A stretch of DNA of 32,613 nt from Saprospiraceae bacterium. Its GTDB lineage: Bacteria; Bacteroidota; Bacteroidia; Chitinophagales; Saprospiraceae. The stretch lies in the NCBI GenBank assembly GCA_007121335.1, contig SKLY01000156.1:1-32613 (forward strand), given 5' to 3'. Position numbers and translations under genes: made by a program. This document shows positions 22,272 through 26,910 of this stretch, piece after piece (positions within the stretch are counted from its first letter, which is position 1; the number at the start of each line of letters is the position of its first letter). Below the pieces are notes generated by a model. That model did not search any database. It was not told the origin of the DNA and saw only the letters and a program-made list of their open reading frames with translations.

Positions 22272-23006
22272 ATGCACGCCAACACTAAAGAAATAATCCG
22301 CACCGAAGACATTAAGAAAACTTATCAGATGGGAACCATGGTGGTAAATGCACTCAATGGGGTGTCCATTACCATCAATGAGAATGAGTACGTCGCCTTG
22401 ATGGGCCCTTCCGGTTCGGGAAAATCCACTTTGATGAATGTACTCGGCTGTTTGGACAGTCCGACCTCGGGAAAATACATTCTCGACAATCAGGATGTGA
22501 GCAGGATGTCCGACAGTGAGCTGGCCGGAATACGAAATCGCCAGATTGGCTTTGTATTTCAAACTTTTAACCTCCTTCCCAGATTAAGTGCGCTGGACAA
22601 TGTAGCACTACCTCTGGTTTATGGTGGGATTTCAAGGAGACAAAGAACTGAAAGGGCCTTAGAAGTGCTCGACCTCGTTGGATTGGGGGATAGAACACAT
22701 CACAAACCCAATGAATTATCCGGTGGACAGCGTCAGCGCGTAGCCATTGCCAGAGCCCTTGTTTCAAACCCCAGCATTATTTTGGCCGACGAGCCCACAG
22801 GAAACCTGGATACCAAAACCTCCTATGAGATTATGGAGATTTTTGAGAAGGTCCATGAGGCAGGCAATACCATCATTTTGGTCACGCACGAAATCGACAT
22901 CTCCGAACACGCCCACAGAATTATCAAACTCAGAGATGGGGTAGTAGAAACCGATGAGTTGAACCAAGATGTAAAAAAATTATTAGGTACAGGAGTAGAA
23001 AGTTGA
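22272..23006 (+). CDS. ABC transporter ATP-binding protein, LolD/MacB type
   Basis: 244 residues with all motifs of an active ABC ATPase: Walker [10 protein letters not shown] near residue 45, Q-loop [15 protein letters not shown], signature [15 protein letters not shown], Walker [12 protein letters not shown] and the switch His in [19 protein letters not shown] and [17 protein letters not shown] are characteristic of the LolD/MacB/FtsE group, which drives lipoprotein release or mechanotransmission-type extrusion. No permease gene is adjacent, so its partner is encoded elsewhere. The last codons (Val-Glu-Ser-stop) fall in an AGTTGAAAGT-type repeat, so the extreme C-terminus seems to have been set by the repeat. 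Confidence 0.92.
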
Positions 23007-23176
23007 AAGTAAAAAGTTTAGACAGTAAAAAGTCGATAATGGCCCACCAAAGGGTTGGGGGCAAGCGGTTAGGGCTTTGGGGCATGAGAGGCAATTAGTA
23101 AATTGCGTGTTTTTCTATCTGTAGATACGCACGGCCGTTGAGAGTTGAAAGTTTAGAAAGTACAAAGTTGAAAGTG
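22998..23176. repeat. AGTTGAAAGT-type repeat arrays
   Basis: Two A/G-rich stretches built of AGT-spaced units: 22998-23032 (gaaagttgaaagtaaaaagt, then tttagacagtaaaaagt) and 23141-23176 (agagttgaaagtttagaaag, then tacaaagttgaaagt). They begin inside the stop region of the ABC ATPase gene. Similar AGTTGAAAGT-type tracts are familiar from gene gaps of Bacteroidota. The 770-bp gap 23007-23776 has no credible gene; its other contents are listed separately. Confidence 0.6.
23101..23139. repeat. Degenerate ACGCACGGCCGT dispersed-palindrome fragment
   Basis: AATTGCGTG at 23101-23109, then GTAGATACGCACGGCCGT at 23121-23138 with the self-complementary ACGGCCGT at 23131-23138. It resembles one half of a dispersed palindrome (GTAGAGACGCACGGCCGTGC and its complement) that I recall from gaps in several bacterial phyla; the other half has been replaced by the AGTTGAAAGT array. 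Confidence 0.4.
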
Positions 23177-23347
23177 GGGCATTATTAGGCGGCAGGTAGT
23201 TTTCTTTCCAGTTAATTATTAAGGCGCATGGCGCAAATAGTCGCTTTAACCTAATTTCTAAAGTAGGTAGTTAGTATATTGCTGTGTTCTAATGTATGTA
23301 CTGACGTATTAAAATACTTCTACCATAATATGATGAAGCGAAAATAA

Positions 23348-23578
23348 ACGTGGCCTTTAGGAATTTGGCGTTAAGAAAAATTGGTTTCTCACCGTTAAGA
23401 AAGTTGTCAGTGTCTGAAGTTCATAGGAATTCGACAAAAAGATTCGGAGAGTCAATAGCAACAAACGGTAAAAGCCGTGATTCTTCCCTTAGTATTGTTG
23501 CCTTGTAAATTCCTATGAACAAGTTTGACAACTTTTAGGTGAGGGGCCGATTTTTTAGTCAAATTCATACGTGGCCTT
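23348..23578. mobile_element. Foldback (MITE-like) element with nested inverted repeats and 10-bp flanking direct repeats
   Basis: Inverted blocks pair in order from outside inward: GAATTTG 23361-23367 with CAAATTC 23560-23566; CTCACC 23388-23393 with GGTGAG 23538-23543; AAGTTGTCA 23401-23409 with TGACAACTT 23526-23534; GTTCATAGGAATT 23419-23431 with AATTCCTATGAAC 23508-23520 (perfect 13 bp). Inside the 76-nt loop are GCAACAA 23458-23464 with TTGTTGC 23495-23501, and ACGG 23465-23468 with CCGT 23475-23478. Just outside the arms the same 10 bases, ACGTGGCCTT, occur directly at 23348-23357 and 23569-23578, like a target-site duplication. No ORF is inside. A structured RNA is the alternative reading. 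Confidence 0.55.
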
Positions 23579-23588
23579 GATTTTTTTG

Positions 23589-23616
23589 TTACTTTTTGTA
23601 TCAAGACAAAAAGTAA
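23589..23616. repeat. REP-like hairpin TTACTTTTTG/CAAAAAGTAA
   Basis: A perfect 10-bp inverted repeat (arms 23589-23598 and 23607-23616) with an 8-nt loop, tatcaaga. The surrounding cttgatttttttgttac and loop sequence match, from memory, a hairpin repeat seen many times in Bacteroidota gene gaps. It directly follows the right-hand ACGTGGCCTT of the foldback element. Confidence 0.6.
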
Positions 23617-23635
23617 TATATAAAATATGTGGCAA

Positions 23636-26838: not shown

Positions 26839-26910
26839 TAGCCCCGCCAGGACTCGAACCTGGATCTAGAGTTTAGGAAACTCCTATTCTATCCCTTGAA
26901 CTACGGGGCC
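26839..26910 (-). tRNA. tRNA-Arg, anticodon CCU (reads AGG)
   Basis: A 72-nt minus-strand cloverleaf. Acceptor GGCCCCG (26910-26904) pairs with CGGGGCT, with a G-U at the top (1-72) and discriminator A. The D stem is GTTC/GAAT; the anticodon stem is GGAGT/ACTCT with loop TTCCTAA, so the anticodon is CCT; the T arm is CCAGG-TTCGAGT-CCTGG. CCA is not encoded. A short T-run follows on the transcribed strand. It converges with mutS2, whose stop is 14 bp away. Confidence 0.93.

Follow-up and report, generated by a model that had tools for sequence, protein, structure and literature searches.

A MITE- and REP-like dispersed repeat of Bacteroidia with a conserved, pseudoknotted and strand-specific core

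The interiors of short dispersed repeats are generally regarded as disposable. Repeats of the ERIC/BOX/NEMIS type are imperfect palindromes of roughly 100-200 bp, scattered through intergenic DNA, whose transcripts would be expected to fold. The element described here is like them in these respects; their sequence and hosts are unrelated to it, and we know of no pseudoknot in repeats of that type. In Bacteroidetes, 'atypical secondary structures' have been described beside TnpA Y1 genes of subclass 2.6 (PMC6006769). The locus analysed here has an ABC-transporter ATPase gene on one side and a cobalamin adenosyltransferase gene on the other, in a window of 32,613 nucleotides (the whole stretch of DNA analysed). 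A preliminary description had claimed a foldback at 23348-23578 with nested arms, direct repeats of ten bases and an adjoining hairpin, to be read either as a MITE inserted into a REP-like repeat or as a conserved structured RNA. Both alternatives hold in part, because the element is mobile and its structure is conserved with covariation.

Fold and 3' pseudoknot of the window copy

All of the nested paired arms previously claimed are present, in nested order, and the foldback goes far beyond chance. Both strands of 23340-23630 were folded, as the preliminary description had proposed: as RNA the + strand reaches -99.1 kcal/mol against -57.4 +/- 5.0 for shuffled sequences (z = -8.35), and for the - strand z is -5.8. 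The foldback stands, then, and its limits do not, since the conserved element runs from GGCC at 23352 to 23616. Its features are as follows.

23348-23357, + strand: left copy of the decamer ACGTGGCCTT, in which GGCCTT is the 5' end of the element and ACGT is private flank
23352-23616, + strand: conserved element, folded core plus 3' pseudoknot, the extent common to near-complete copies
23352-23576, + strand: core, an interrupted hairpin GGCC...GGCC, from the span of covariance model R1 (156 bits) and covariation
23358-23369, + strand: 5' strand of P1, TAGGAATTTGGC, pairing with 23558-23569
23370-23375, + strand: first copy of the internal loop GTTAAG, opposite TA at 23556-23557
23376-23393, + strand: 5' strand of P2, pairing with 23538-23555, interrupted and with G-U pairs
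23394-23399, + strand: second copy of the internal loop GTTAAG, opposite TA at 23536-23537, identical in sequence to the first
23400-23409, + strand: 5' strand of P3, 10 bp, pairing perfectly with 23526-23535
23410-23418, + strand: 5' side of the conserved loop, GTGTCTGAA (order-level consensus CTGTCTGAGC/GCGAGTTT)
23419-23431, + strand: 5' strand of P4, 13 bp, pairing perfectly with 23508-23520
23432-23507, + strand: apical region, which differs between copies in their alignment
23508-23520, + strand: 3' strand of P4
23526-23535, + strand: 3' strand of P3
23538-23555, + strand: 3' strand of P2
23558-23569, + strand: 3' strand of P1
23569-23578, + strand: right copy of the decamer ACGTGGCCTT, internal, reaching from the end of P1 into the pseudoknot
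23576-23581, + strand: 5' strand of pseudoknot stem a, CTTGAT, covarying class-wide with 23600-23605
23589-23599, + strand: 5' strand of pseudoknot stem b, TTACTTTTTGT, covarying class-wide with 23606-23616
23600-23605, + strand: 3' strand of stem a, ATCAAG, supported by covariation
23606-23616, + strand: 3' strand of stem b, ACAAAAAGTAA, the 3' end of the conserved element

The two internal loops are identical (C-GUUAAG-A opposite U-UA-G) and a third loop has GUGUCUGAA opposite CAAGUUU; the first GTTAAG loop is kept throughout the genus and in G135, L044, L235, L373 and L374. Within the apical region, about eight bases at 23465-23476, and at the equivalent site in other copies of the same genome (G000), vary amid conserved surroundings, and some of these variants (TCTAAAAG, TGTACCAA, GGTAAAAG) recur in unrelated copies or genomes.

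The same ten bases do occur at both ends of the arms, as claimed; their reading as a transposition footprint had to be given up. The decamer is no target duplication because its right copy belongs to the element, GGCCTTG being conserved there in other copies apart from deletions and small insertions (alignments with flanks), and because the ACGT of the left copy is found only in the window copy. Empty sites holding a single ACGTGGCCTT had been predicted, and none of eight element-free or core-free sister loci contains the decamer.

The second hairpin lies exactly where it had been placed (23589-23599/23606-23616). Together with CTTGAT/ATCAAG it is an H-type pseudoknot (order a-b-a'-b') and the 3' end of the element itself. 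We therefore reject a separate REP-like repeat that was hit by an insertion, as the hairpin belongs to the element, in which it forms a pseudoknot after the core in genomes across the class; of the MITE reading, the mobile element survives without its REP-like target. This accounts for the hairpin dispersed in Bacteroidia (CTTGATTTTTT..ACTTTTTG..ATCAAG): a larger element ends with it on the 3' side. The pattern CTTGAY-T5..CTTTTT..TCAAG was found in 63 of 295 sampled genomes and 44 of 156 genera of the class, with up to 53 copies per genome; the reversed control gave one match, and outside the class three of 186 phylum genomes had one copy apiece. Of 60 distinct pseudoknot strings, 58 have a standard free pair in stem a; in stem b, outer pairs one to three are standard in 58, 58 and 57 strings (30, 55 and 31 on average after shuffling). 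At L373, stem a appears to have been swapped entirely for GGTGG/CCACC.

Small hairpins of the CTTGTGCTGAG..TCGAAGCAC or CCCCAAAGCTTTGGGG type sit within the loops of some 3' pseudoknots (L077, L122 and L182 in G003; L007, L010 and L062 in G000 and G004). A second class of element, from several families (L230, L238, L239, L244-L246 and L329-L345), has the same 3' pseudoknot and a different body (GYGCGnnGGCCYGA-stem...stem'-CTTGAT).

Covariation of the fold

Testing homologues for covariation, which the preliminary description had recommended, revealed covarying pairs in the genus, in the order and in the class-wide pseudoknot. The genus alignment comprised the arms of 11 diverged members, with the apical loop taken out. 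Here 94.4% of cells pair, falling to 52% when the partner is slid by one base, and 15 pairs are altered on both sides against 7.0 +/- 1.7 after shuffling (0/500); in P1, both sides have changed in 4 of the 12 pairs. The cells include 36 G-U and 2 A-C combinations, an A-C being a G-U on the other strand. It is therefore the + strand that folds, and a single strand, whether RNA or ssDNA, that has been selected.

A covariance model (R1) was built from the genus core. It matches L044, L235 and L056, each directly 5' of a pseudoknot, and in a search of 101 relatives it detected 23 copies in G135, a near-complete genome from another family of the same order (E values from 7e-9 to 8e-6). The G135 copies carry GGCC, GUUAAG or a variant of it, CUGUCUGAGC / GCGAGUCU, UUUUUAGCC, AGCC and CTTGAT..ATCAAG. 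With G135 included, both-sided changes reach 34 of 52 pairs at the order level (446 cells against 170 +/- 16), in an alignment that was fitted to the model and whose cells are not independent events because the G135 copies are closely related. The palindromic nature of the element gives its reverse strand echo scores of 27-36 bits with R1, and matches of about 30-37 bits were therefore accepted only when they shared + strand motifs and had an adjacent pseudoknot. The strict pattern CTGTCTGAGC..GCGAGTTT matches G024 only, because the intervening stem varies. Body-fold z-scores across distant members were mixed and not counted as evidence.

Judged from these comparisons of sequence, the fold is kept by evolution across much of the class Bacteroidia. 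Template switching, which needs no selection, can likewise create compensatory changes in long palindromes; as the whole cause it is disfavoured by the pseudoknot and by the unpaired loops that are conserved in our alignments. Of the structured RNA that had been proposed, the conserved and covarying structure is thus borne out at the level of genus, order and class, while action as an RNA stays a prediction.

Copies, empty sites and frames

The genome and its relatives were searched for further copies, as had been suggested. In the genome itself (G000; 3.14 Mb in 308 contigs), BLASTN found 11 copies that exceed 220 bp and are 86-96% identical, together with fragments, and others are present in the sister species G002, G003, G004 and G006. 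The copies are non-coding, several to a genome and differently flanked, as in MITEs. When named genomes were scanned for the pattern, those carrying it proved to be Saprospirales MAGs (isolates PLM2, DLM2 and CSSed10), sample names that we take to refer to soda lakes. Many contigs in these MAGs terminate in copies of the element.

Empty sites were sought in the sister species with the flanks of seven G000 copies. At L009, the site is short and contiguous in G002 as well as in G004 (GTAGAAAATA..TTATGAAAATACTC); G000 has therefore gained about 580 bp there, the core included, with few duplicated target bases at most. G004 has element-free sites at L002, L011 and L008. At the window locus G002 is without the element and G004 retains the 3' strand of the pseudoknot without the core, a situation resembled by L005 compared with G004; the lone pseudoknot end at the window locus of G004 could be a deletion and not a later insertion. 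The covariance model has no match in the eight element-free or core-free sister loci. Gain is best supported at L009, where two relatives agree, and loss in G004 is possible for the cases that involve a single relative. The gained segments (580-663 bp) are larger than the shared element, and copies in the window genome share differing amounts of flank. With some 11 near-complete copies at home, more in sister species and element-free orthologous sites, the dispersed, non-autonomous mobile element of the preliminary description is upheld.

The surroundings of the core differ between lineages. In G135, 13 copies sit in units of 472-481 bp with terminal inverted repeats (CTGACTATCCGC..GCGGATACTCAG), and 10 of the 13 units share at least eight of nine flanking bases (a target duplication of about 9 bp), against 5.8% with swapped flanks. 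Because of these repeats and duplications, the G135 unit is a genuine MITE. The other frames were read by eye. In G003, the core lies inside a unit bounded by CGAATTAGGCTAATAAATAATAA, for which 62 end matches were counted, and one unit has AAGTTAT on both sides; G006 has units with G003-type ends and no core; the frame ends are GAGTCCACTCCGAAAAGTC in G012 and TACACCAA in G351. In G105, the flanks diverge immediately outside GGC at one end and the pseudoknot at the other, and no terminal inverted repeat is visible by eye. A single core occupies several unrelated frames and apparently also none.

Other repeats accompany the element. Positions 23082-23110 of the window (ATGAGAGGCAATTAGTAAATTGCGTG) are a second dispersed palindromic repeat, also found upstream of many element copies (L003, L007, L010-L012, L015, L060, L062 and L065), and 23005-23180 holds degenerate short repeats of the GAAAGTTGAAAGT / GTAAAAAGT type that occur near several other copies in the genome. 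Another foldback, with ends of approximately ACCCGGAGTATTCATGAGGGT, lies inside the second GTTAAG loop at L106, L110, L094, L177 and L186 (G003) and L065 (G004), in two species; it seems that the loops of palindromes serve as insertion sites for further palindromes. At L346 (G080:C51, 1-1100), at least two class A elements alternate with a different, inverted pseudoknot element in a tandem, BIME-like array of about 381 bp; tRNA-derived ends were considered for G080 and rejected, ARAGORN finding no tRNA. At L182 (G003:C37) the stretch GAGCCGTATGACGGGCGACTGTTACGTAAGGCTC, which resembles domain V of a group II intron, adjoins a truncated element. The window itself has a tRNA gene at 26839-26910 on the - strand (Rfam RF00005).

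Mobilisation and relation to known systems

A mobilising gene was looked for around the copies. No pseudoknot lies beside any of 54 Y1 transposase loci inspected in carrier and related genomes, and the Y1/RAYT association was dropped. The 120 ORFs adjoining elements are mixed housekeeping genes with no recurrent neighbour, and gene orientation and position around the copies follow no consistent pattern. A small ORF (MNLALRKIGFSPLRKLSVSEGHRNSTK) found in most G000 copies was rejected as a gene; it is probably a coincidence, since its start codon is missing from the window copy and from the G003 and G006 copies.

We consider it fairly probable that this is a non-coding, non-autonomous mobile repeat with a strand-specific core fold, the core being moved in trans and probably also alone. 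Mobilisation in trans is suggested by Y1 loci that lack the motif, by the mixed neighbours and by the patternless orientation. Where a lineage has terminal repeats, a DDE-type transposase would act on the frame, and MITEs that captured the core would amplify it. The recurrence of one core in unrelated frames, and apparently in none, makes it probable that the core also spreads alone, as a single strand (ssDNA or RNA) in folded form, for which the by-eye comparison of flanks in G105 provides the basis; by analogy with what is thought for REP/BIME repeats, a trans-acting factor may recognise the folded strand. Tentatively, one might go further and see a class-wide mobile structured nucleic acid of Bacteroidia that spreads by a single-strand or RNA-based route not yet recognised and is carried along by unrelated MITEs. 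The family hallmarks would be a core of the form GGCC...AGCC, loops of GUUAAG and CUGUCUGAGC/GCGAGUUU, and a pseudoknot of the CTTGAT type.

An ordinary MITE superfamily seems to us rather unlikely. DDE transposases would act on fast-changing terminal inverted repeats, and the fold would never move alone, being a passive interior or one that serves the transposon, for example by blocking transcription through the element. The true frames of G135 with their target duplications and the terminal-inverted-repeat frames of G003, G012 and G351 accord with this, and frame ends and core can be inherited jointly. However, MITE interiors are normally unconserved, yet this core is kept across families whose ends are unrelated, and both the G105 copies without terminal inverted repeats and the coreless G006 units with G003-type ends fit poorly. 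A host functional non-coding RNA, either regulatory or a transcript-end structure and only incidentally multi-copy, is improbable. The covarying fold, the + strand polarity and the pseudoknot would suit such an RNA, but the copies occupy non-orthologous sites that are empty in sister species, keep no consistent position or orientation relative to their assorted housekeeping neighbours, and match no Rfam family. A tie to TnpA Y1 subclass 2.6 is hardly credible: the survey's account of that subclass (PMC6006769) and, in G080, two element classes in BIME-like inverted pairs would fit it, but none of the 54 Y1 loci has the pseudoknot beside it, and neither G004 (96% complete) nor G342 (95% complete), in which the element or its pseudoknot is present, has any Y1 match.

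Beyond Rfam, BLASTN against plasmids and phages gave no match, and targeted searches of the open-access literature turned up no description. The favoured reading, a mobile repeat with a strand-specific core, raises testable questions: what reads the fold, and does the fold move alone?

To conclude, we rate the element as a MITE/REP-like repeat, undescribed in the catalogues searched and unusual for its conserved, pseudoknotted and strand-specific core. Like MITEs, it is non-coding, dispersed and intergenic, and in G135 it has terminal inverted repeats and target duplications of about 9 bp. Unlike in MITEs, conservation falls on an inner fold that is strand-specific and pseudoknotted, whereas the terminal repeats vary by lineage, with none visible in G105 and undefined outer ends in the window genome. 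It shares with the REP/BIME repeats of TnpAREP (RAYT) its dispersed, intergenic, folded nature, a lineage-specific sequence and, in G080, inverted pairs; however, it is far larger (265 bp), pseudoknotted and without a Y1 gene beside any copy seen. The structures of subclass 2.6 (PMC6006769), compared by description, are likewise atypical, repeated and from the same phylum, but the element lacks their Y1 adjacency. Here, evolution keeps an interior pseudoknotted fold while the transposon ends differ between lineages.
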